A DNA stretch of 64,000 nt from Micromonospora sp. R77 (lineage in GTDB: Bacteria; Actinomycetota; Actinomycetes; Mycobacteriales; Micromonosporaceae): contig NZ_JALDST010000001.1 in NCBI RefSeq assembly GCF_022747945.1, positions 1,054,001 to 1,118,000 on the forward strand, written 5' to 3'. How positions within the stretch are numbered: the stretch's first letter is position 1; each line of letters starts with the position of its first letter. Below are positions 16,384 to 63,308 of this stretch, piece by piece. A program made the translations under genes and the position numbers. The notes under the pieces are model-generated. The model was not told the origin of the DNA and made no database searches. It saw only the letters and a list, made by a program, of their open reading frames with translations.

Positions 16384-18227
16384 ATGCCGGTATCGGTCAC
16401 CATGCCCCGGCTCGGCGAGAGCGTCACCGAGGGCACCGTCACGCGCTGGCTCAAGCAGGAGGGCGACACCGTCGAGGTCGACGAGCCGCTGCTCGAGGTG
16501 TCGACCGACAAGGTCGACACCGAGATCCCGTCGCCTGCGGCGGGCGTGCTGAGCCGGATCGTCGTCGGTGAGGACGAGACCGCCGAGGTCGGCAGCGAGC
16601 TGGCCGTCATCGCGGGTGAGGGCGAGTCGGCCGGCGAGGCCGCCCCGCAGCAGCAGGAGGAGGCCCCGGCCGAGCAGGCCGAGGAGGCCGCCGCCGAGCC
16701 GCAGGCCGAGGCGGAGCAGCCGGCCGTCGAGGAGCCGGCGGCCGAGGCCGCCCCGGCGCCGTCGGGCGAGGGCACCCCGGTGAAGATGCCGGCCCTGGGT
16801 GAGAGCGTCACCGAGGGTACGGTCACCCGCTGGCTCAAGCAGGTCGGCGAGACCGTCGAGGTGGACGAGCCGCTGCTGGAGGTCTCCACCGACAAGGTCG
16901 ACACGGAGATCCCGTCGCCGGTGGCCGGCACCCTGCTGGAGATCAAGGTCGCCGAGGACGAGACCGCCGACGTCGGCGCCGACCTGGCGATCATCGGTGC
17001 GGCCGGTGCCGCACCGGCCCAGCCGAAGGCGGAGCCCAAGCCGGAGCCGAAGGCCGAGGCCAAGCCGGAGCCGAAGGCCGAGGCCAAGCCGGAGCCGAAG
17101 GCCGAGGCCAAGCCGGAGCCCAAGGTCGAGGAGCCGACCCCGGGCATGTCGTACAACGAGCCGGCCGCGGAGGCGGAGACCGCCGCCCAGCCGGCCAAGG
17201 CGGAGCAGGCGGCCCAGCCCGCCGCGCCGACGCCGACCCCGCAGCGCCCCTCCGCCCCCGTGCAGGGTGGCGGCGAGGAGGCGGCCGGCTACGTGACCCC
17301 GCTGGTGCGCAAGCTGGCCGGCGAGCACGGGGTGGACCTGTCCTCGATCACCGGCACCGGGGTCGGCGGCCGGATCCGCAAGCAGGACGTGCTGGAGGCG
17401 GCCGAGAAGGCGAAGGCCGCCAAGGCCGCGCCGGCCTGGCCGCGCCGCCGGCCGCCGCCGCGGGCGCTCCGGCCAAGCCGGCCGCGAAGCCGCAGCCGAG
17501 CGGCAAGCGGGGCACCACGGAGAAGCTGCCGCGGATCCGGGCGACCATCGCCAAGCGGATGCAGCAGTCGCTGCACGAGATGGCGCAGCTCACCACGGTG
17601 GTCGAGGTGGACGTCACCAAGATCGCCAAGCTGCGGGCGCAGGCCAAGGACTCGTTCCTGGCCAAGCACGGCGTGAAGCTCTCCTTCCTGCCGTTCTTCG
17701 CCCTGGCGGCCATCGAGGCGCTGCAGGCGTACCCGATCGTGAACGCGAGCATGGACCTGGACGCGGGCACGATCACCTACCCCGACGCCGAGCACCTCGG
17801 CATCGCGGTGGACACCGAGCGTGGGCTGATGGTGCCGGTCATCCACGGTGCCGGTGACCTCAACCTGGGCGGCATCGCCAAGCGGATCGCCGACCTGGCC
17901 GAGCGCACCCGGACCAACAAGATCAGCCCGGACGAGATCGCCGGGGCGACGTTCACGCTGACCAACACCGGCAGCCGGGGCGCCCTCTTCGACACCCCGA
18001 TCGTGCCGTCGCCGCAGTCGGCGATGCTCGGCACGGGTGCCGTGGTGAAGCGTCCGGTCGTGGTCAACGACCCGGAGCTGGGCGAGGTCGTCGCGGTCCG
18101 CTCGATGATCTACCTGGCCCTCTCCTACGACCACCGGCTGATCGACGGCGCCGACGCCGCCCGTTTCCTGGTCGCGGTCAAGGAGCGGCTGGAGGCCGGC
18201 AACTTCGAGGCCGAGCTGGGGCTGTGA
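16384..18227 (+). pseudogene. sucB: Dihydrolipoamide acyltransferase E2 (SucB type) with one frameshift
   Basis: The layout is two lipoyl domains (residues 1-77 and about 130-205, each with the lipoylation loop [13 protein letters not shown]), an AKPEPKAE linker, a peripheral-subunit-binding domain ([20 protein letters not shown]) and the catalytic domain with the active-site segment [18 protein letters not shown]. It transfers the succinyl or acetyl group from lipoamide to CoA. The frame changes once in the Ala/Pro linker between about 17435 and 17490. Before it the coding frame is that of the ATG at 16384; after it, [19 protein letters not shown] reads in another frame to the stop at 18227. 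Both halves are perfectly conserved and the enzyme is central, so a one-base sequence error is likelier than a pseudogene. Shine-Dalgarno GGAG precedes the ATG. Confidence 0.88.
17038..17121 (+). repeat. 24-bp tandem repeat in the E2 linker
   Basis: Three and a half copies of a 24-nt unit beginning AAGCCGGAGCCGAAGG encode the octapeptide KPEPKAEA. The unit is a multiple of three, so copy-number change would only alter linker length. Confidence 0.85.
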
Positions 18228-40461: not shown

Positions 40462-43443
40462 CTAATCCAGGGCTTCGGATTTCCGCAACTCGGCCAGAGC
40501 GGAACTGGCACGAGGCTCCCATTGCGGGTGCCTGCTCTGCACGACTTCCCGCAGCATGATCAGCGCATTCTGCAGCCTTGCTGGATTTCCGTGCGCACCA
40601 TCCCACCAATAGAACATGCCCATCCAGTAGGCCGCTTCCAGGCGATACTCGGGATGCCCCGAGTGATACGCCGTCCGAAGGTGGCGCATCCCTACATGTT
40701 TCCTGCCCTGCGTGCCGTGCAGCAGACCGAGGGCACAATGCCCGGCGGGAGCCCAGTCCACATGGCCGGCATCGATCGTGGTCTGATACGCCACGATTGC
40801 CTCGTCCAACTCCCCCAACTCCTCCAACATATGACCGAGTCGCCAGGCCGCTTCGCTCTGCGCTTCCGGATTCTGTGACTCATACGCCAGACGCGTCACC
40901 CTCAGGGCCTCTGGGCCGGGGCCATTCCGACGGTAGATCCGGTCGCCGAGCGTAACGGCCGCGATCGGAGCGTAAAGAGGATCATCGACCTGAATGGCTC
41001 GGTAGTAGTAGTCGTCGATGATCGCGGCATCCGCATCCACCGACTCGTGGACCTGGGCAAGCATCATGGCAACCTTGGCCTTGAAACCTGACTCAGCCAG
41101 GTCCATGGCGTGTTGAAGTTTGGCCAGGGCGGTGCGGTAGTTCCGACCATCAAGGTGGGCGACGCCGATGTTGAAGGCAGCCTTTGCCCGCACCTCCGGA
41201 TCACCGAGCTCCTCGGCGGTGGTCCAGGCCTGGATTGCTGCGCGAGCATCCGCCTCCTCCTTTTCCCACAGCAGAGCACCGAGACTGAGCGCCGCCTGCG
41301 CGGAGTAGTGAGGTTGCGTGCACCGGATGCATTCTTCGTAGGCCTCCCTCGCCTCCTCCAGGAGGCCCATCTCCATGGCAGCTGATCCAGCGTCGTAGAG
41401 TGCCGCTGCGCGGAGCTCGGGCGGCGCAGAGGCGGCCACGCCGCGAAACGCCGCCAAGGCACCGCGTAGATCCCCGAGCTCAAATCGCTTCCTGGCGCCA
41501 GCCAGCGCTACATCGACATCGAGCGGGTGAGGGTCGGATTGAGGTGCTGATTCCTCGGCACTCTGGGCAAGTTCCACATAGTCCCGCAGAGCTCGGGTGA
41601 CGTCGTCAGAATTTCCCCGGCGCTGGTTGTCCGCGGTTTCCCACGCCTCAAGGAGTGCTTGCATCTCTCCGACTGAGCCTCGGACAAAGGAAAGCAGCGT
41701 CGATGCGCGCAGTTCCATGCCAGGAAGAAGGGGATCAGAGAAGTCCCGGCTCAGTGCCGCGATCGCTTCATCTTTTTCACCTATCGACGCGTAATGACGG
41801 CCGAGTTCGAGCCAGGACATGAGCGCGTGGGTGCCGGGCCACTGCGTTGCGAGCGTCCAGTACTCGATGGCACGTTCGATGCTTCCCTCAGCTTTGCACA
41901 TGCGCCCCAACAGTTCGGCCGCGGCACTCGCCTCCTCCGACGGTCCCAGGCTGACGACCGCCATCAGCGCCGCCCTCGCAGCGGATAGATCGCCCAGCTC
42001 GTACAGTGTGTTTCCGAGCAGAAACTTTGCCCGGGCAAGGTTTTCGGGGATCGTTGCCGCTTTGACCAGCGCTTCCCTCGCATAGACGAGGGCGCCGCGC
42101 TCGTACGCCGCCCGGGCGACGTGAAAGCACTCCTTCGGACTGAGGATCCCGACGAGGGCTGGCCAGAGGGAATCGGGCATCTCCCAGGTCGCCTTGCCGT
42201 CCCGCAGATGATCTGAGATAGTCCAGCAACGACGACGACGCCAGCTCCGGAAATGGATCAATGAAGGAGTATCGGGGCCGGCCTTCTGCGCCCACGCCAT
42301 TCCCTCCACGAAGAGCCCGTCGGAGGCAGGGATATCACCGATCTCCGCAAGGTGGATCGGGAAGATTTGTCTCAGCTCCTCCTCCAGCACCGGTCGCGTC
42401 AAGCCGGCACGCCATAGATCGAACAGGCTGCGGACAATGGCCACCCCGGAAGGGCTCTGGAAGCGGCCTGCGTTCAGCCGAATCCACATCAGACGGGGAT
42501 CCACGCCCGGCTCGGCCCTGCTCAGCTCGACGTTCCTGGCGCCAACTGTCTGCTCAATGACTTCTGGGTCATACGGCAGGGGAACGGAATACGCGCGCTG
42601 GAGCGCTGCCCTGGCGGTCGGCTTCGTGCCATGAGCGTCGAGGATGGCAGCGCACTCGTCAGCCGAGATGGTCGCTACGAGGAACGCCCTGTGGGCGAGT
42701 AATTCCAGCGTTTCGTGAGTAAGGCGGTCGAGGTCTGCGGAGGTCACGCCATCCGCCCAGATCAGCAGGCGGCCCGTCATCGTGGCGACGTCATCGGCGT
42801 GGGCAAGGGCGGCGATCGCACTCATGTCGCGCGGTACGAGCACTTTGGTCTCCGGCTCCAGCGTCTCCACGATCGCGGCCCACGCAGCTGTCGACTTGCC
42901 GGCCCCACCTTCGCCGTACACCAGCAGGAACGGATACGGGGACGACGGAGTGGCCAGCGCCACGCGCAGTTCCTCATCGAAATCGGGACGCGGCAGGTAC
43001 ACCCCGCCGGCCGGCGCGGGCCTGCCGGTCCAGCACTCGACCTGGTCCGCCGGAAGGACCAGGAACTGATCCAGCAACTTCCTCCGGCGAACGCCTTGCT
43101 GAGCTTTCTCCCTCTCCAATTCGGCGTGCACCAGCTGGAGGCGCCTGCTCCACTCGTCCCGATCCACCAGGCTGGCTTCCAGCTCCAGAGCTTGCTCCCC
43201 GGCGCAAACCACCAGCCCCCTGACGACATCGTCCACCAGTTCCCAGCGCGGGGCCCGCCTACCACCGCCGGCGAACAGCTCGGAGAGAGTCGCAGTACCC
43301 CATCTCCCTCTGGTCTTACCGCTGATCTTTCTCAGTGACGGCGACCCAGCGCGCAGCCTGAGTTCGCGAAGCGCCTCGGCGAACCGAGGCACTGACCACA
43401 CGGTGTTCCCATCGCCCCTGACGCCAGTCGGCTCCTCGCTCAT
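40462..43443 (-). CDS. HTH-P-loop NTPase-TPR protein, STAND-like
   Basis: A cytosolic protein of 993 residues. Residues 10-85 resemble the HTH that heads many actinobacterial signalling NTPases (FAEALRELRLRAGSPSLRKI). A NTPase core follows with Walker A YGEGGAGKS (near residue 179) and a Walker B-like GRLLIWADGV (near 226). From about 450 to the end there are at least twelve TPR/Sel1-like helical repeats (for example AEYWMG- and GDLRGALAAF-type units). The layout of sensor repeats on a P-loop switch is that of STAND proteins, some of which act in phage defence or regulation; the effector module is not identifiable. Codon use is less GC-biased than neighbouring genes, suggesting acquisition. 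The start is leaderless (TAAAGT six bases upstream). Confidence 0.82.
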   Translation of the reverse strand: MSEEPTGVRGDGNTVWSVPRFAEALRELRLRAGSPSLRKISGKTRGRWGTATLSELFAGGGRRAPRWELVDDVVRGLVVCAGEQALELEASLVDRDEWSRRLQLVHAELEREKAQQGVRRRKLLDQFLVLPADQVECWTGRPAPAGGVYLPRPDFDEELRVALATPSSPYPFLLVYGEGGAGKSTAAWAAIVETLEPETKVLVPRDMSAIAALAHADDVATMTGRLLIWADGVTSADLDRLTHETLELLAHRAFLVATISADECAAILDAHGTKPTARAALQRAYSVPLPYDPEVIEQTVGARNVELSRAEPGVDPRLMWIRLNAGRFQSPSGVAIVRSLFDLWRAGLTRPVLEEELRQIFPIHLAEIGDIPASDGLFVEGMAWAQKAGPDTPSLIHFRSWRRRRCWTISDHLRDGKATWEMPDSLWPALVGILSPKECFHVARAAYERGALVYAREALVKAATIPENLARAKFLLGNTLYELGDLSAARAALMAVVSLGPSEEASAAAELLGRMCKAEGSIERAIEYWTLATQWPGTHALMSWLELGRHYASIGEKDEAIAALSRDFSDPLLPGMELRASTLLSFVRGSVGEMQALLEAWETADNQRRGNSDDVTRALRDYVELAQSAEESAPQSDPHPLDVDVALAGARKRFELGDLRGALAAFRGVAASAPPELRAAALYDAGSAAMEMGLLEEAREAYEECIRCTQPHYSAQAALSLGALLWEKEEADARAAIQAWTTAEELGDPEVRAKAAFNIGVAHLDGRNYRTALAKLQHAMDLAESGFKAKVAMMLAQVHESVDADAAIIDDYYYRAIQVDDPLYAPIAAVTLGDRIYRRNGPGPEALRVTRLAYESQNPEAQSEAAWRLGHMLEELGELDEAIVAYQTTIDAGHVDWAPAGHCALGLLHGTQGRKHVGMRHLRTAYHSGHPEYRLEAAYWMGMFYWWDGAHGNPARLQNALIMLREVVQSRHPQWEPRASSALAELRKSEALD

Positions 43444-49016: not shown

Positions 49017-52000
49017 TCAGGGAGTGTCGAGGACGCGCTCCATGGCGGTGCGGGCGCGGCGGGTGGTGCGGAGGTATTCGTCGAGGAACTCGCCGGGGTC
49101 GTCGCGGCCGAGCAGCCGGACCACGCCGGCCAGCTCCACACCGTGCCGGGGCAACTGGTCGCCGGCCCGGCCCCGGATCAGCATCAGCGCGTTGCGGGCC
49201 TGCGCCGCGAGGGTCCATCCGGCGGCCATCTCGGCGGCGTCGTCCGGGTCGACCAGGCCGGCGTCCCGGGCGGCGGCGAGCGCGTCGAGGGTACGCGTGC
49301 CGCGCAGCGCGGCCAGCCGGCCGGCGTGCCGGAGCTGGAGCAGCTGCACCGCCCACTCGACGTCGGCGAGCCCGCCCCGGCCCAGCTTGGTGTGGGTGGC
49401 CGGGTCGGCGCCGCGCGGCAGCCGTTCGTTCTCCACCCGCGCCTTGATCCGGCGGATCTCCACCACCTGCTCGCGGGTCAGCCCGTCCGCCGGGTGGCGG
49501 ACCGGGTCGACCATCGCCTCGAACTCGGCGCCCAGGTCGGCGTCGCCGCAGACGAACCGGGCGCGCAGCAGCGCCTGCGCCTCCCACACCTTTGACCAGC
49601 GGGCGTAGTACTGGGCGTACGCGGCGAGGCTGCGGACCAGCGGACCCTGCCGGCCCTCGGGCCGCAGGTCGGCGTCGACCCCGAGCGGCGGGTCGGGGGC
49701 GGGCACCCCGAGCAGCCGGCGCAGCTCCTCGGCGACGGCGTGCGCGGCGGCGCTGGCCGCGCCGTCGTTCGCCCCGGCCGGCGGGTCGTAGACGAAGAGC
49801 ACGTCGGCGTCGGAGAGGTAGTTGGACTCGTAGCCGCCCAGCCGGCCCATCCCGATCACCGCGAAGCGCAGCCCGGGCGGGGCGGGTTGAGCGGCCCGGG
49901 CGGTCCGCAGCGCGGCGGCCAGGGTGGCGTCGGTGACGTCGGAGAGGGCGGTGCCGACCGCACGCACGTCGGCGAGGACGGGGGTCCGCTCGGGTCGCGT
50001 CCCCGGGTCGGTAGGGCGGGGCGTGAGCGGGGCCAGCGTGCCGGCCCGGCTGAGCACGTCGGCGCAGGCGAGCCGGAGCAGCTCCCGGCGGCGCAGGGCC
50101 CGGACCGCCCGGATGGCCTGCTCCGGGTCGGCGTGCCGGGTCGCGGCGGCGGCGAAGCCCTCGCAGAGCACCGCCCGGGGTCGGGGGGCCAGCTCACTGT
50201 CCTCGGCGAGCATCCGCAGCGCCTCGGGTTCCCGGGCCAGCAGGTCCGGGACGTACCGGGAGGAGGACAGCACCCGGGCCAGCCGGCGGGCCACCGGCCC
50301 CTCGTCCCGCAGCAGCCGCAGATACCAGGGGGTGCTGCCGAGCTTGTCGGACACCTGTCGGTAGTTGAGCAGCCCTCGGTCGGGTTCGGGGGCGTCGGCG
50401 AACTCGCTGAGCAGCACCGGCAGCAGGGTGCGCTGGATGGCCGCGGTGCGGCTCACCCCGCCGGTCAGCGCCTGGAGGTGACGCAGCGCGCCGGCCGGGT
50501 CGGCGAAACCGAGGATCTCCAGCCGGCGCCGGGCCGCCTCCGGGGTGAGCCGCAGCCCGTCGGCCGGCACCCGGGCCACGGACTCCAGCAGCGGCCGGTA
50601 GAGCAGCTTGGCGTGCAGCCGGCGTACCTCGGTGGCGTGGGTGACCCACTCGGCGCGGAACTCCTCGACGGCGCTGCGGCCCGGGGTGGCCGCATAGCCC
50701 AGCGCGGCGGCCAGCCAGCGCAGCGCGGCCGGCTCGGTCGGCACGGTGTGGGTGCGGCGCAGGCCCTGCAGCTGCAGCCGGTGCTCGACGCCGCGCAGGA
50801 AGCGGTAGCCGCGCAGCAGCGCCTCGCCGTCGGCGCGGCCGACGTAGCCACCGGCGACGAGGGCGCGCAGCGCGGGGATGGTGCCCGGCACCCGCAGCGA
50901 CTCGTCGACCCGGCCGTGCACCAGTTGCAGCAGCTGGACGGCGAACTCGATGTCGCGCAGCCCGCCGGGGCCGCGCTTGATCTCGCGTTCCAGCTCCTTC
51001 GGCGGGACGTTGTCGATGATCCGCCGGCGCATGGCCCGCACGTCGTCGACCGCCTCCGGCCGCTCGGCCGCCGACCAGACCAGCGGCGCGAGCTGGTCGA
51101 TCCACTCCCGGGCCAGGTCCAGGTCGCCGGCCGCCGGCCGGGCCTTCAGCAGGGCCTGGAACTCCCAGGTCCGGGCCCAGCGCCGGTAGTAGGCGAGGTG
51201 ACTGGCGAGGGTACGCACCAGCGGCCCCCGGCTGCCCTCCGGGCGCAGTGCCGCGTCCACCGGCCAGGCGACCAGCCCGCAGACGTGGATCAGTCGGGTG
51301 GCGACCAGGGTGGCGGCGGGCAGGTCGTCGTCGGCGGCGACGACGAAGATGACGTCCACGTCGGAGACGTAGTTCAGCTCGTCACCACCGCACTTGCCCA
51401 TCGCCACCACGGCCAGCCGGGGCGGGGCGGTGCCCTCGGGCAGCTCACCGACGGCGATCTCGTACGCGGCGGCGAGGGTGGCGTCGGCGAGCGCGGAGAG
51501 CGCCGCCATGGTCTGCTCCAGCCCCCGCCCGCCGGTCAGGTCGGCCGCCGCGATCCGCAGCAGCGCCAGCCGGTACGCCTGCCGGAGCACCGCCACCGGC
51601 TGGGTGGACGCGGTACGGCGGCCGGCGTCGGCCAGCTCCAGCCGGCCGTCGGCGGTCGGGGCGAGCCCGTCCGGGGCGGTGGCCAGCACCGACCACTGGT
51701 CGGGGTTGGCCACCAGGTGGTCGCCGAGGGCCGAGGACGCCCCGAGCACGGCGACCAGCCGGCGGCGCAGCCCGGGGTCGTCGTGCACCGCGTCGAGCAG
51801 CGGGGACGGGGTGTCCCGCGCGGTGGCGTCCCGGCCGGCGGTGGCGTGCCGCTCGGCCTCGACGAGGCGGTGCAGCTGGCGCAGCGCCAGGTCCGGGTCG
51901 GCGGCCCGGGAGAGCGCGGCCAGCAGTTCGGTCGCCCGCTCGTCGGTGGGTTCCTGGGTGTCCGGCCGCCACAGCCCGAGCCCGTCGGGGCCGAGCAGGT

Positions 52001-52073
52001 CGGCCGCGCGGGTCCCGCCCTCGCCCTCGGCGAAGCCGTACCGGGCGAGGCGGCCTCGGGTGGACCGGGTCAT
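49017..52073 (-). CDS. glnE: Bifunctional glutamine synthetase adenylyltransferase/adenylyl-removing enzyme
   Basis: The 1018-residue GlnE adds or removes AMP on the GlnA tyrosine in response to nitrogen status. Two nucleotidyltransferase domains are seen: AMGKCGGDELNYVSDVDVIF (near residue 233) and IGMGRLGGYESNYLSDADVL (near 753), each with the G..GG..L.Y.SD.D pattern. RGPGGLRDIEFAVQLLQL and GRGGLADVEWAVQLLQL are the conserved helical segments after them. The ATG at 52073 is one base from the stop of the amidotransferase gene upstream, so they are co-translated. Together with glnA it completes the adenylylation control loop. Confidence 0.97.
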   Translation of the reverse strand: MTRSTRGRLARYGFAEGEGGTRAADLLGPDGLGLWRPDTQEPTDERATELLAALSRAADPDLALRQLHRLVEAERHATAGRDATARDTPSPLLDAVHDDPGLRRRLVAVLGASSALGDHLVANPDQWSVLATAPDGLAPTADGRLELADAGRRTASTQPVAVLRQAYRLALLRIAAADLTGGRGLEQTMAALSALADATLAAAYEIAVGELPEGTAPPRLAVVAMGKCGGDELNYVSDVDVIFVVAADDDLPAATLVATRLIHVCGLVAWPVDAALRPEGSRGPLVRTLASHLAYYRRWARTWEFQALLKARPAAGDLDLAREWIDQLAPLVWSAAERPEAVDDVRAMRRRIIDNVPPKELEREIKRGPGGLRDIEFAVQLLQLVHGRVDESLRVPGTIPALRALVAGGYVGRADGEALLRGYRFLRGVEHRLQLQGLRRTHTVPTEPAALRWLAAALGYAATPGRSAVEEFRAEWVTHATEVRRLHAKLLYRPLLESVARVPADGLRLTPEAARRRLEILGFADPAGALRHLQALTGGVSRTAAIQRTLLPVLLSEFADAPEPDRGLLNYRQVSDKLGSTPWYLRLLRDEGPVARRLARVLSSSRYVPDLLAREPEALRMLAEDSELAPRPRAVLCEGFAAAATRHADPEQAIRAVRALRRRELLRLACADVLSRAGTLAPLTPRPTDPGTRPERTPVLADVRAVGTALSDVTDATLAAALRTARAAQPAPPGLRFAVIGMGRLGGYESNYLSDADVLFVYDPPAGANDGAASAAAHAVAEELRRLLGVPAPDPPLGVDADLRPEGRQGPLVRSLAAYAQYYARWSKVWEAQALLRARFVCGDADLGAEFEAMVDPVRHPADGLTREQVVEIRRIKARVENERLPRGADPATHTKLGRGGLADVEWAVQLLQLRHAGRLAALRGTRTLDALAAARDAGLVDPDDAAEMAAGWTLAAQARNALMLIRGRAGDQLPRHGVELAGVVRLLGRDDPGEFLDEYLRTTRRARTAMERVLDTP

Positions 52074-58762: not shown

Positions 58763-59125
58763 TCAGCCGGCGGCCGGCGGCGTGAAGACGCCCAGCAGGT
58801 TGCCGAACGGATCCCGCAGCCGGGCCTGCACCAGCCCGCTCGGGGTGGTGTTCGGCGGCACCACCACCGTGGCTCCCGCCGCCTCCGCGCGCCGGCAGGT
58901 CTCCGCCACATCGGCCACCTGCGCGTAGAAGATCGCGTAGTTCGGCGAGCCGGCGTCGAGGGTCCGGATCGCGCCCCCGATCCCCTGCTCGCCGCCGGCC
59001 ACCGTCTGCCGGTAGGCGGGGCCCTGCGCCTCGAAGGCCCAGCCGAACAGGTCGGTGTAGAAACGCTCGGCCTCGTCGGGGCGGTCGGCGCCGATCTCGA
59101 ACCAGGTCACGGGCGTGCTGGACAT
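58763..59125 (-). CDS. VOC family protein
   Basis: A single-unit VOC protein of 120 residues: VTWFEIGADRPDEAERFYTD, LFGWAFEAQGPAYR and the C-terminal VQARLRDPFGNLLGVFTP. A candidate metal ligand is the conserved acidic residue near the C-terminus, but no substrate is suggested. AGGAGG lies just upstream of the ATG at 59125. It lies between the amylase promoter and the NACHT gene, on the same strand as both. Confidence 0.85.
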   Translation of the reverse strand: MSSTPVTWFEIGADRPDEAERFYTDLFGWAFEAQGPAYRQTVAGGEQGIGGAIRTLDAGSPNYAIFYAQVADVAETCRRAEAAGATVVVPPNTTPSGLVQARLRDPFGNLLGVFTPPAAG

Positions 59126-59165: not shown

Positions 59166-62100
59166 TCAGGAGTCAGCCTCGCCGGCGTCCGCGACACCGT
59201 CCTGTCGGTGTTTCCGTAGCGTCTCGGAAGTATCAAAGTCCACAAGCGGCCGCATTCGTGCGACCAGATCAGGACGGCGGGCAGCACATCGCTGCTGAAA
59301 GCTCTTCATCTCGATAGCCGAGATCGGCTCGCGACGCAGCTCTAGCTCGTACAGGCGCACTAGCCCCTCCGCGATTGACTCGTCCAGCCAGTCAGCCGGA
59401 CGTCCGCGCCCTGCCGCACCTCCCCGGGCCCCTGTCACCAGCGCGGGGGTCAACGCGGTGAATCGAATGTCGGCCTGGTCGTCCCGGCCGAGGAAGGTCA
59501 GCACGCAACGGAACACCGGCTCCTGCAGTCCCACGGTCAGGTTCAGCTCGTCGAGACGACGAAGCGTGTCGGCGACGAAGACAGCAGGCAACTCGCTGTC
59601 ACAGCTCATCCGTTCCAGCAGCAGGGCGACGAGAGGTCGTTGCTCGGGATCTTCCTCGTACGAATCAAGGGTGGAGATCAGCCGTTCGTAGACCCGTAAA
59701 CGCTCGGTGACGCCGCTACCCGACACCGACGCGAGTGCCACGTCGAGGAGCACCCTCGCCTCCGACCGGTCCCCGTCCGGGAACGTATAGAAGCTTTCCA
59801 GCTCGGTCCGAGGCACGACCCCGGCCCGCACCCCTTCCGACAGAAGGAAGTCAAACGGTTCTACGGCGTGCAGTACAGCCTCGACGGCCGGGTCGCACTC
59901 GAAATACGCGGTGCGATGAAGCACTTCGACATCATTGCCAGCAGGTGCGTACCAGTATCTCGCATCCGTGTCGACCGGATCGTCGACAGCCCTGAACTGC
60001 CAGCGAGGGTCGCTACGCGTCGGAGGCGACTGATCCGAGGGGCGAATCGACAGGGTCAACTCCCGCCTCCCGCTGACCCACGTCCGCGTCGGCCGCACCA
60101 TCCTCAAAAGGCTCAGGTAGCCCTCCGTGGGCAGTTGCGCCCGCCACTGCAGCGCGTCCCGTCGCCAGTGATACATGGGCGCACCGGCGTCGTCGTAGAG
60201 TGCGGAACACGAAAGGTCGGCCACGCAAAGGGCAAGCACTAGCAGGTTCGCAGAGTAGGCCGCGCACCGCCCGGGCAGTGTCAACCGCGTCGGCTGGTAA
60301 CCGTCGAACCGACGCGCCCGAGAAACATGCGGCGCCATCCGGAATAGCCGCTGCAGCAGGGATGTCGAGGCCTCCCGCCGCGCGCCGTCTTGGCTCGCGA
60401 GCCGTTCGGTGAGGAACCCAACCACCGGAGCGCGGCTGGTGAGCACGGCGTAGGACAGCAGGGCGTGGAGCAGGTCGTCGTCGACCGGCTCGCCGCCCCA
60501 GGACAGGCTGGTGGCCCGGTCCCGGGCCACCAGGTCCTCTACCACCTGCGCGGTGAGCCGGGCTACCAGGTACTCGCCGAAGGTGGCATGTAGAAACTCG
60601 TACGTCTCCCGCCACCGCTCGTCCGTGGCGGCCCGGGACCGGTGGACGAAGAAGAACCGCCCCAGCACCAGCTCGGCCGCAGCCAAGGGGGTCCGCAGCC
60701 CGCCGCGCTCGCTGGCTGTCCCGCCGCCGAACGGCAGCGCGGCGAGGTCGGCGTCGAGTTCGGCCGTGCTTACCCACTGCGCGCCCCGGTTGAACATCGC
60801 GAAGGCGACCACCGACAGCCGGCACAGTTCCTGCTCGATCACCCGGGCCAGTTCGTCTTCGGGTAGGCCGTCGCGCTGCTTGACCACCTCCCGGCGAGCG
60901 AAACGGCGCAACAGCCGCTCGTACAGCTCGCCCTGACGCAGCTCCCCGGCTTGGCGCAGGTCGTTGCCCTCGGCGTCGTAGAGGGCCAGCATCAGCAGCA
61001 GCAACGGCTGCTCGGCCAGCTCGCGGTGGGTCAGCACGGTTGCGCAGTCCAGCGGTCGCACGTGGAGCGCCCGGAAAGCGGCGAGGTTAGCCCGGTTCCA
61101 GGTCCGCACCCAGGTCTCAACCCGCGCGTCGTCGAAGGGCTCCAGTCGGACGGCCACCGCGCCGGGCGGTGGCTGCGCCCGGTCGGCGACGCTGCTCCGG
61201 CTGGTGACCAACACCGCTACCGGTCGACCCTGGTCGGCCTCCCGGCGCTGGAACGTGGCCACCCGCCGCAGGTAGTCGGTCTGGCTGACCCCGGTCGCCT
61301 GGAGCAATTCGTCGAAGCCGTCAAGCAGCACCACCGGCAACGCGTCACCCGCCGAACGGGCCAGCGCCGGCCAGTCCAGACGTTCACCGGTGTCGTTTCG
61401 GATCGCCTGCTCAATCTGGTCCTGGAGGTCACCCGCCGCGTACACGTCCCGCAGCACGACCCGGACGACCAGGAAGTCGGCGGCCGGTAGTTGGGCGGCG
61501 ACGACCCGGGTCAGCACCGACTTGCCGGAGCCCGGCTGACCGAGCACCAGCAGCGGGGCCCGGATCGCGCCGGGCGAGGTCAGGTGAACGACGAGGGACT
61601 CCCACAGGTCATCGCGAACCGGCTGGCCGTCCCACCAGGTCTCGTCGGCGGGCCGCGCCTCCGGGCCCAGCTGGGCGATCCGGCACAACGGTGGCACGTA
61701 CGCCTCGCCGAGCGTCGGCACGATCAGCCCGGCCGGTACGTCGCCGGAGCTGAGGATCGGCCGGCGCAGCTCCGCGGTGTAGGCGGCGGCGAGCGCCGCC
61801 CGCCGTTCGTCCGGCGGGCGGCCGGTGGACAGGTCAGCGAGGGCTCGGTGCAGCTCGGCCAAGCCCAACGATAGGCTGCGCACCTGCGCACGGGTGGCTT
61901 CGTGCTCATGCAGGCCGAGCCAGAGCGACACCTCGGGGAAGTCAACGGCAAGCTGGGTCAACAGGTCCCGATGCCGGGCGGCCGCCGCTTCCGGAATTGG
62001 CGACAGCTCTGTGATCTTTCGGCGCTGCGACAGAGGTAACGCCGCCCACATCTGTAGGCCCTCGAGGAAGTGCAGTAGACGGCCGGCGAGGTCCTGGTAG

Positions 62101-62549
62101 AAGGCGATAAGGGCGGCCCGTAGGGCCGAGTAGGGCAGATGCGGCCCGGGCACCGGCGCGGCAGCGGAGAAGAACGCGTCGGTCAGCGTCGATGGATCGA
62201 CCGGACCGGCGCCGGCCAGCGACAGCTGCTCGGCCTTGATAATCCGCATCTCCCCGAGGTCGAACGGTAGATCAGCCTCGCCGAGCGCCTCGAAGAAGGC
62301 GGTCACCGCGATCACCGCGTGCGCCGCCTCCAGCCGCTGCGTCCTCCTGTACCGGGACAGCCCCGAACGTTTCTCGGAGACAGTCTGCAACAAATCCTGT
62401 CCGAGCCGCGCGAAGCCCTTCACGTCGAGTAACCCGAACAGCGGTGGCACCGGCACCATGGTCGTCAGCTTCTCGAACCGCTCGATGAAGCCGCTCTGTT
62501 TCCCGCCCAGCAGGCGTACGGCGTCGGCGTAGCTGAGCGTGTCGGGCAC
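59166..62549 (-). CDS. Bacterial NACHT (NLR-like) NTPase with NNH7-type N-terminal domain
   Basis: A 1127-residue protein. The N-terminal 200 residues, beginning PDTLSYADAVRLLGGKQSGF, with RLEAAHAVIAVTAFFEALGE and IIKAEQLSLAG, resemble the NACHT N-terminal helical domain 7 (NNH7). The NACHT core has Walker A VLGQPGSGKSVLTRV (near residue 336), Walker B VVLLDGFDELLQ (near 408), sensor VLVTSRSSV and the FLHATFGEYLVARL segment (near 655). The C-terminal 450 residues are helical and lack a named repeat. bNACHT proteins are known anti-phage factors in other bacteria, acting by nucleotide-dependent oligomerisation; here the effector mechanism is unknown. The GTG at 62549 has GGGAGGA upstream. A WYL regulator gene lies 68 nt upstream. 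Confidence 0.88.
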   Translation of the reverse strand: MPDTLSYADAVRLLGGKQSGFIERFEKLTTMVPVPPLFGLLDVKGFARLGQDLLQTVSEKRSGLSRYRRTQRLEAAHAVIAVTAFFEALGEADLPFDLGEMRIIKAEQLSLAGAGPVDPSTLTDAFFSAAAPVPGPHLPYSALRAALIAFYQDLAGRLLHFLEGLQMWAALPLSQRRKITELSPIPEAAAARHRDLLTQLAVDFPEVSLWLGLHEHEATRAQVRSLSLGLAELHRALADLSTGRPPDERRAALAAAYTAELRRPILSSGDVPAGLIVPTLGEAYVPPLCRIAQLGPEARPADETWWDGQPVRDDLWESLVVHLTSPGAIRAPLLVLGQPGSGKSVLTRVVAAQLPAADFLVVRVVLRDVYAAGDLQDQIEQAIRNDTGERLDWPALARSAGDALPVVLLDGFDELLQATGVSQTDYLRRVATFQRREADQGRPVAVLVTSRSSVADRAQPPPGAVAVRLEPFDDARVETWVRTWNRANLAAFRALHVRPLDCATVLTHRELAEQPLLLLMLALYDAEGNDLRQAGELRQGELYERLLRRFARREVVKQRDGLPEDELARVIEQELCRLSVVAFAMFNRGAQWVSTAELDADLAALPFGGGTASERGGLRTPLAAAELVLGRFFFVHRSRAATDERWRETYEFLHATFGEYLVARLTAQVVEDLVARDRATSLSWGGEPVDDDLLHALLSYAVLTSRAPVVGFLTERLASQDGARREASTSLLQRLFRMAPHVSRARRFDGYQPTRLTLPGRCAAYSANLLVLALCVADLSCSALYDDAGAPMYHWRRDALQWRAQLPTEGYLSLLRMVRPTRTWVSGRRELTLSIRPSDQSPPTRSDPRWQFRAVDDPVDTDARYWYAPAGNDVEVLHRTAYFECDPAVEAVLHAVEPFDFLLSEGVRAGVVPRTELESFYTFPDGDRSEARVLLDVALASVSGSGVTERLRVYERLISTLDSYEEDPEQRPLVALLLERMSCDSELPAVFVADTLRRLDELNLTVGLQEPVFRCVLTFLGRDDQADIRFTALTPALVTGARGGAAGRGRPADWLDESIAEGLVRLYELELRREPISAIEMKSFQQRCAARRPDLVARMRPLVDFDTSETLRKHRQDGVADAGEADS

Positions 62550-62617
62550 GCGCGTTCCTCCCCAGGGACGGCAGACCCGCCAGGGTCCCGCATCCGGACC
62601 GGGAACGCTGTCGGGTT

Positions 62618-63308
62618 TCAGACCAGACTCAGCGGGCGCAGCCGATCGTGCGGGATGTCGATGTCCTCGGGGCGCAGCTCCCGGGTGACCGGCTCGGACA
62701 GCGACGTCACCGAGACGATCCGATCGGTGCGGAAGCAGCGGGCCCCGTCGCGGAGCCGGCACCAGCCCCCCAGGTACCAGTGGCGGGAGTTGCCGAGGTA
62801 GCCGAGCGGCTCGACGTCCCGCGACGACACCGCGCCCGCGCGGTCCGCGTACCGCAGGCGGAGCACGCGCCGCGCGGCGACCGCGTCGGCGACGGCGGCC
62901 GGGACGGGCGTGGCCGGCCCGTCGCCGATCAGGTGCACCCGGCCGGCCAGCCGGTGCGCCTCGGCCACGTCGGCGGCCGGCATGACCGCGACCAGCTTGC
63001 GCAGCGCGGCCGGCCGCCGACGCGAACGGCGAACCGGCCAGCCGGTGCAGGCCCAGGGCGATCGCCACCGCCTCACCCGGGGTCAGGTTGACCGGCGGCA
63101 GCGTGCGCGCCCGGTCGACCACGTAGCCGCCGGTGCGGCCGGGCTCGGCCCAGATCGGCACGCCGGAGGCCTGCAACGCGCCGATGTCGCGCTCGACGGT
63201 CCGGGTGCTGACCTCGAAGCGGCGGGCCAGCCAGGCGGCGCTGCGCGGGCGCGGCGACACCGCCCGCAGCTCCTCCACCAGGGCGTAGAGACGATCCGTC
63301 CGGTTCAC
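62618..63308 (-). pseudogene. WYL-domain HTH regulator (YafY-like) with one frameshift
   Basis: The N-terminal HTH (GTG 63308: NRTDRLYALVEELRAVSPRP, then VSTRTVERDIGALQASGVPI) and the WYL half (ALRKLVAVMPAADVAEAHRL, YADRAGAVSSRDVEPLGYLG, RHWYLGGWCRLRDGARCFR) belong to one 230-codon regulator. They are split by a one-base frame change near 63010-63020 in a GC-rich stretch (ASAAGRAAL). WYL proteins bind nucleotide-like ligands and often control defence genes. The frame change makes the first half read straight on towards the NACHT gene, which is not a real fusion. A sequence error is likely. TAGCTT sits six bases before the GTG (leaderless). Confidence 0.82.

Follow-up and report, generated by a model that had tools for sequence, protein, structure and literature searches.

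Gene content of the site

The stretch of Micromonospora sp. R77 DNA analysed here, called the window, spans 64,000 nucleotides and carries on its minus strand three adjacent genes: a WYL-family regulator, an NNH7-NACHT gene of the NLR-like STAND type, and a glyoxalase-like gene of the VOC family. Our preferred reading, to which we give a probability of about 0.7, is that WYL and VOC form a regulator-target unit and that this unit shares one chromosomal address with a guest NLR-like NACHT gene. The initial annotation had proposed instead that the regulator and a bacterial NACHT (bNACHT) protein make up a candidate defence unit. That observation was confirmed in part: the NNH7-NACHT identity of the large protein and the lack of a known repeat in its C-terminus stand, whereas the conserved pairing of WYL with bNACHT does not.

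The minus-strand frame 59166..63308 runs for 1380 codons without a stop, yet it contains more than one gene. A single fusion protein of 1380 amino acids is ruled out, as the frame crosses the WYL gene outside WYL's own frame. The regulator (62618..63308, minus strand) starts at GTG 63308, and its frame is broken near 63000 in this assembly. Its front (63308-63000) forms the first ~100 codons of the 1380-codon frame and carries the HTH_11 domain (48.1 bits against a Pfam cut-off of 25), and the WYL domain (65.3 against 21.8 bits) lies in a second frame (63076-62618). Most of the 112 WYL-bearing genomes surveyed below have an open frame of at least 228 codons around the WYL match; the WYL gene of G047 is likewise split, and several other WYL copies end at contig ends. 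Elsewhere in the window, an E2 subunit gene (16384-18227, plus strand) encodes its lipoyl and E3-binding domains in a different frame from its catalytic domain. Since the E2 and WYL genes are split alike, assembly indels are suspected in this high-GC genome, and such an indel is the likeliest cause of the break near 63000.

The NACHT gene (59166..62549, minus strand) is open throughout its 1127 codons. It starts at GTG 62549, 5 bases past GGGGAGGAA and 68 nt downstream of WYL on the same strand, and ends at 59166. The next gene downstream is VOC (58763..59125, minus strand), which matches PF00903 at 50.3 bits and PF18029 at 34.4 bits.

Domains and predicted fold of the NNH7-NACHT protein

By sequence and predicted fold, the protein is an NLR-type switch that has NNH7 at one end and whose C-terminus is helical and variable. 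Its N-terminal helical domain (aa 3-215; 61905..62543, minus strand) matches NNH7 (PF22738) at 212.5 bits against a curated cut-off of 27, and the same family is matched by 16 of 16 aligned proteins, the window protein among them. The NACHT NTPase follows with its helical and winged-helix parts (about aa 244-837; 60039..61820, minus strand). This region holds the Walker A motif GQPGSGKS at 337 and the Walker B motif LLDGFDELLQ at 408, and ten positions (G337, P339, G340, G342, K343, S344, D410, G411, D413, E414) are invariant in 52 aligned proteins. In the predicted structure, the nucleotide-binding domain and the helical and winged-helix parts have an NLR-type fold. The profile match to PF22738, the Walker motifs and this fold bear out the NNH7-NACHT identity that was first proposed from the letters of the sequence.

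The hypervariable C-terminal region (aa 741-1127; 59169..60329, minus strand) is the presumed sensor. Its outer part is predicted to form a HEAT/ARM-like solenoid, and no leucine-rich repeat (LRR) family in Pfam matches it, in keeping with the earlier remark that the C-terminus is not a known sequence repeat.

The WYL-VOC unit and its palindrome

A survey of 160 Micromonospora genomes, with match limits of E 1e-20 for WYL and VOC and 0.001 for NACHT, found WYL and VOC in an identical set of 112 genomes, on one contig and one strand in 112/112. NACHT is absent from between the two genes in 86 of these 112 loci, and in 84 of them the matched stretches lie 87-426 bp apart. The other two (G024 and G035) have a gap of about 1.76 kb with two other genes as cargo (L092 3440-4958, L093 3741-5264), presumably MarR-like and oxidoreductase-like, judging by their sequences. 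In G153 (L257), WYL and VOC share an inversion with respect to the backbone, which indicates that the pair moves as a unit. Across the family, WYL was found in 84 of 200 genomes and 20 of 44 genera. Among 20 WYL regions of 10-11 kb from other genera, picked among the best WYL matches, 18 have WYL and VOC no more than about 600 bp apart. The VOC gene, not NACHT, is the lasting partner of WYL.

The palindrome CGACA-N6-TGTCG (59192..59207), the presumed VOC operator, falls within the final codons of NACHT. Across 75 fetched regions (1.26 Mb) there are just 66 copies of it. It stands within 160 bp upstream of VOC in 64/64 fetched loci (shuffled mean 0.02), and in the same fetched regions it was found before WYL in 0/62 and before NACHT in 0/33. 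In the genome of the window, a 20-base form has a single perfect match, at this site, with none at one mismatch, two at two mismatches and 13 at three; the reversed pattern, used as a control, gave 2 matches in all. Of the 26 loci that have both NACHT and VOC, 13 show the VOC palindrome overlapping the end of NACHT, 2 of these 13 being remnants. An extra palindrome occurs inside NACHT, 387 bases before the stop, in G038 (L235 position 3607) and G145 (L237 position 8237). Outside Micromonospora, the palindrome precedes VOC in 17 of 18 WYL-VOC loci, including those in which VOC is turned round relative to WYL. In the regions from other genera (L309-L328), GlnA-, GAT- and GlnE-like genes often lie close to the WYL-palindrome-VOC unit, in which VOC has either orientation.

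A precedent comes from SiwR, a mycobacterial WYL activator that recognises an imperfect palindrome of 19 bp in the promoter of the adjacent gene; in some Actinobacteria a PF18029 gene stands beside siwR (PMC10693628). Together with the palindrome before VOC, this precedent makes action of WYL on VOC the natural reading, and it is most likely, by analogy, that WYL binds the palindrome and switches VOC. The SiwR-type arrangement, in which WYL neighbours a glyoxalase-like (PF18029) gene and a palindrome precedes this target, was found in 64/64 loci of Micromonospora and 17/18 outside it. The site differs from the SiwR unit in that a NACHT gene may sit between regulator and target.

Occupancy of the site by NACHT

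NACHT lies between WYL and VOC in 26 genomes, as 24 long copies, of which those in G101, G108 and G145 are in two pieces, and 2 remnants (G046, G132). It stands beside WYL-VOC, not between them, in one genome (G050). Seven of the 160 genomes carry NACHT at the same site without WYL or VOC, and one of these copies (G156) is broken. Overall, NACHT occupies the site in about a fifth of the genus.

The initial annotation suggested that WYL and bNACHT act as one inducible module, in which WYL would repress or activate the NACHT gene directly downstream. The shared strand and the spacing of 68 nt in the window fit this proposal, as does the presence of WYL beside 27 of 34 site-borne NACHT genes (2 remnants counted). 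Against it, 85 of the 112 WYL-VOC genomes have no NACHT beside or between the two genes, and the seven NACHT genes without WYL show that the reverse also occurs. NACHT is present at the site in 27/112 genomes with WYL-VOC versus 7/48 without (Fisher p 0.21, uncorrected for genome relatedness); there is no association of NACHT with WYL-VOC. The position of the full palindrome, before VOC and not before NACHT, likewise speaks against the module.

A wider survey of gene neighbourhoods, which had been named as a check for conserved WYL-bNACHT pairs, gave no sign of such conservation. At least 404 NNH7-NACHT relatives were found among the matches listed, and the best 80 of these (one genome per species, flanks up to 10 kb) were taken as named loci. 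A WYL-family frame occurs in the flanks of 6 of these 80, all from Micromonospora and all at this site; the WYL gene of L216, which had been left out of the seed, was matched at E 2e-90. Of the 80, nine belong to this site: 6 have WYL and VOC and 3 do not, Plantactinospora among the 3. For the other 71, none of the flank genes of this site was present in the fetched stretch. Conversely, the 20 WYL regions of other genera gave no match to NACHT. A WYL-NACHT pair conserved across genomes is therefore ruled out by the 6 of 80 named loci and the Fisher test, and the inducible module fails as a conserved pair. We consider direct control of NACHT by WYL within one defence module improbable. The better account remains a WYL-VOC unit with a guest at the same address.

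The surroundings of the site are constant. In the 75 fetched regions, the shared backbone consists of NadE and GlnA, then DUF350, the variable site, S66 and GAT, and finally GlnE; these NadE-, GlnA-, S66-, GAT- and GlnE-like names are our assumption, judged from the sequences. By tblastn, NadE and GlnA were found in 73 of the 75 regions, DUF350 in 61, S66 and GAT in 69 and GlnE in 67; the misses on the NadE/GlnA and S66/GAT/GlnE sides (8 for GlnE) reflect short fetched stretches. In the window, the upstream flank is the DUF350 membrane protein (PF03994; 63341..63766, minus strand), a match to which (E <=1e-30) occurs in 154 of 160 genomes, paralogues counted. The downstream flank is a product (49017..52073, minus strand) that we take to be GlnE-like from its sequence rather than from a family search.

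With constant flanks on both sides, a mobile element or defence island at the site is unsupported. No tRNA was found in the window and no Rfam match in 36000-64000; no dedicated integrase search was made. Within the family, NNH7 occurs in 136 of 300 genomes and 21 of 44 genera, with 0 matches in 14 control genomes. More distant NACHT paralogues were viewed at six loci (L086-L091). The window also holds a second STAND-like protein of 993 aa (40462-43443, minus strand), with a P-loop (nSTAND5-like, E 0.002, below cut-off) and tetratricopeptide repeats. Its gene lies in the lowest-GC stretch of the window (0.64-0.67) and is possibly a recent arrival.

A half-operator before NACHT

A further sequence bears on the question of WYL control. 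The half-operator GAAACCCGACAGCG (62606..62619, minus strand), which is similar to the left half of the VOC operator GAAACACCGACAGGACG, overlaps the stop codon of WYL and precedes NACHT by about 70 nt. With up to 2 mismatches, it occurs before NACHT in 14 of 31 loci (shuffled mean 0.015), a count for a pattern that was picked after the sequences had been seen. The loci with it comprise 13 of 24 NACHT loci with WYL versus 1 of 7 without, a distribution that favours the module. In the window, the exact form is single; tolerating up to 2 mismatches adds another match, at the level of chance (2 found versus 0.93 expected). The sole WYL-less NACHT locus with the half-operator is G156, in which the bases preceding this element are consistent with the end of a WYL gene that would have been lost.

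As far as the sequence goes, weak WYL control of NACHT via the half-operator is possible. The plainer cause is shared descent of the WYL flank, which would place the same bases before NACHT. Exact excision of NACHT between half-operator and operator was also considered and is unsupported: with the exception of G046, the ten NACHT-less spacers compared have different bases following the WYL stop. At four loci from genomes without WYL (L080, L082, L083, L084), a long near-perfect hairpin with the core CTTGGACAG ... CTGTCCAAG lies upstream of NACHT and is weaker in L082.

Turnover, inheritance and loss of NACHT

The site is a fixed chromosomal position with strong turnover of NACHT alleles. Presence and absence were mapped on a core tree of 71 rows, 4 of the 75 genomes having been excluded because they had too few columns. 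Of these rows, 41 lack NACHT and sample the 126 genomes in which no NACHT match was seen at the site; the other 30 carry NACHT, counting the remnant G046 and the broken copies G156 and G145. NACHT presence changes 17 times on this tree, at least 14 of these changes being forced by well-supported branches. Shuffling gave a mean of 23 changes, with 2-4 of 500 shuffles as low as observed. Of 40 WYL-VOC spacers in which NACHT is missing or broken, 4 contain NACHT scraps, of 305, 47, 12 and 12 residues. Shuffled spacers gave 3 chance matches in 20 rounds of 40, so the two 12-residue scraps are likely, not certain.

Distances between genes point to a looser tie of NACHT to the genome. In 15 genomes with whole genes, Spearman's rho against core-protein distance is 0.76 for WYL, 0.48 for VOC and 0.17 for NACHT, and that of NACHT against VOC is 0.11. 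On all available pairs the values are 0.67, 0.47 and 0.22, with -0.04 for NACHT against VOC; here few genes underlie some of the core distances (those of G009 most of all), which biases the nearest-partner rows. NACHT tracks the genome less closely than the flanks do. The NACHT tree, of 29 rows, omits G156, G132, G046 and G145, which were too short, as well as G074; the copies of G101 and G108, each in two pieces, were included to the extent that they had been read.

An explanation by vertical descent alone would hold that NACHT is inherited within lineages and evolves very fast, with no exchange between them. The constant chromosomal site agrees with this, and close species carry close alleles (G104-G031, G092-G059). 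Among 22 rows with complete core genes, rho between NACHT and genome is 0.32, a value reached in 1 of 1000 permutations, and for 12 of 22 the closest partner by NACHT is also the closest genome. These two results imply that part of the inheritance of NACHT is vertical, and indeed much of it is.

Exceptions with complete data stand against descent without exchange. G092 and G102 share 0.96 identity in core proteins and 0.56 in NACHT, G089 and G103 share 0.95 and 0.57, and the closest partner of G029 by NACHT is G108 (.74), although its core is nearer to that of G045. Between G092 and G102, the flanking products are 0.99 (GlnA), 0.95 (WYL), 0.90 (VOC) and 0.95 (GlnE) identical, and the parts of the NACHT gene reach 0.66 in NNH7, 0.78 in the NACHT core and 0.28 in the C-terminus. 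At the DNA level, identity in this pair is 94% over the first 180 bp of the gene, 82% over the next 150 and then about 55%, returning to 94% in VOC. Sharp identity edges therefore lie 180-330 bp inside NACHT and at VOC, while the flanks stay at about 95%. Holding together the six NACHT genes of one genome clade is rejected (p-AU 4e-49 in the approximately unbiased test), for a clade picked after both trees had been seen. Purely vertical, very fast evolution of NACHT appears unlikely, and turnover of guest alleles at the shared address remains our preferred account.

The median pairwise identity of the C-termini is 0.34 (406 pairs); they are still homologous (hhalign E 5e-74), and clustering 29 of them yields 6 groups at an identity of 50% and 15 at one of 60%. 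In G029 and several relatives, the NACHT core is 0.84-0.90 identical, the C-terminus 0.55-0.66 and NNH7 0.47-0.62. The core and C-terminus being shared at least as much as NNH7, the sequences suggest an exchange of NACHT gene parts among G029 and its relatives. In eight close pairs, nonsynonymous divergence (dN) is never above synonymous divergence (dS) in any part, one frame-broken stretch having been set aside, which indicates that the NACHT genes have been kept working. The dN/dS ratio in these pairs is as a rule highest in NNH7 and the C-terminus.

Proposed mechanism and related systems

The following scheme would account for the site. WYL would bind CGACA-N6-TGTCG before VOC and switch VOC as SiwR does its neighbour, and a guest NACHT gene would take the same chromosomal spot, with or without WYL-VOC. 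Its protein would comprise an NNH7 effector or adaptor end, a NACHT oligomerisation switch and a helical C-terminal sensor. The protein is most likely an intracellular sensor, in which a phage or stress cue would bind the C-terminus and the NACHT core would then exchange nucleotide and oligomerise. The NNH7 ends brought together in this way would kill or stall the cell. Part of the turnover would be allele exchange through the homologous flanks.

Several points weigh against this account. The link between WYL and the palindrome comes by analogy from SiwR, not from this WYL. The half-operator stands before NACHT at many loci, and much of the inheritance of NACHT is vertical. PF05729, the NACHT family itself, scores 19.2 bits (E 0.0012) in the window protein, below its cut-off of 26.7; at E <=0.01 it is matched in 13 of 16 aligned proteins, the window protein included. 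PADLOC is without a good model for such a gene.

The sequence of sensing, oligomerisation and action is taken from bNACHT proteins. These are described as tripartite anti-phage proteins with an N-terminal effector end, a NACHT switch and a C-terminal sensor (PMC12169576). The window protein resembles members such as bNACHT25 and bNACHT12 in its tripartite plan and NLR-type core; it differs in that its N-terminus is NNH7, with no nuclease domain among its Pfam matches, and in its PF05729 score. Closest by family are the NNH7 (PF22738) NACHT proteins of Actinomycetota, from which this branch differs by its one fixed Micromonospora site and strong allele turnover. BrxR and the CBASS WYL module (PMC10693628) likewise have a WYL gene upstream of a defence-like gene, but the WYL link here is unconserved and the full palindrome stands before VOC, not NACHT. 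The sensors of multicellular bacteria that are diversified by diversity-generating retroelements offer another NACHT-linked variable sensor (PMC10907252); in contrast, variation here affects NNH7 as well as the entire C-terminus, in a pattern that resembles an exchange of gene parts. Identity to the NACHT modules of NLRC4, NLRP3 and NOD2 is 12-20%, the first 243 residues of the window protein being barely compared, and unlike in those proteins the C-terminus matches no LRR family in Pfam.

The main functional rival is a role in kin or self recognition (allorecognition), or as a developmental switch of filamentous actinomycetes, with no anti-phage sensing. Many alleles at one fixed locus are a pattern known for recognition loci, and this site shows it. 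The frequency of NNH7 in the family and its absence from the control genomes also suit such a role. The fold match does not separate recognition from anti-phage action, and bNACHT proteins of like architecture act against phages (PMC12169576). On this evidence we think a recognition or developmental role rather unlikely and retain a presumed defence output for the guest gene.

A bolder extension is offered tentatively, with the odds leaning against it. The address may work like an R-gene, het or major histocompatibility complex (MHC) locus, in which old alleles are kept, the sensor and NNH7 end are exchanged between species via near-identical flanks, and the locus is emptied and refilled. The guest would, in addition, be in the course of being wired into the WYL-VOC regulon by the half-operator and the overlap with the operator.

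Implications

A regulator next to an immune gene is no proof of a module, and at this site the likely target of the regulator can be read from the DNA. The site also provides a natural series at one NLR-like locus with constant flanks, in which empty, scarred, occupied and differently occupied states stand side by side. Such a series makes the gain, loss and exchange of bacterial NLR relatives, together with C-terminal recognition, directly testable. The turnover of alleles at the site is the part worth following.

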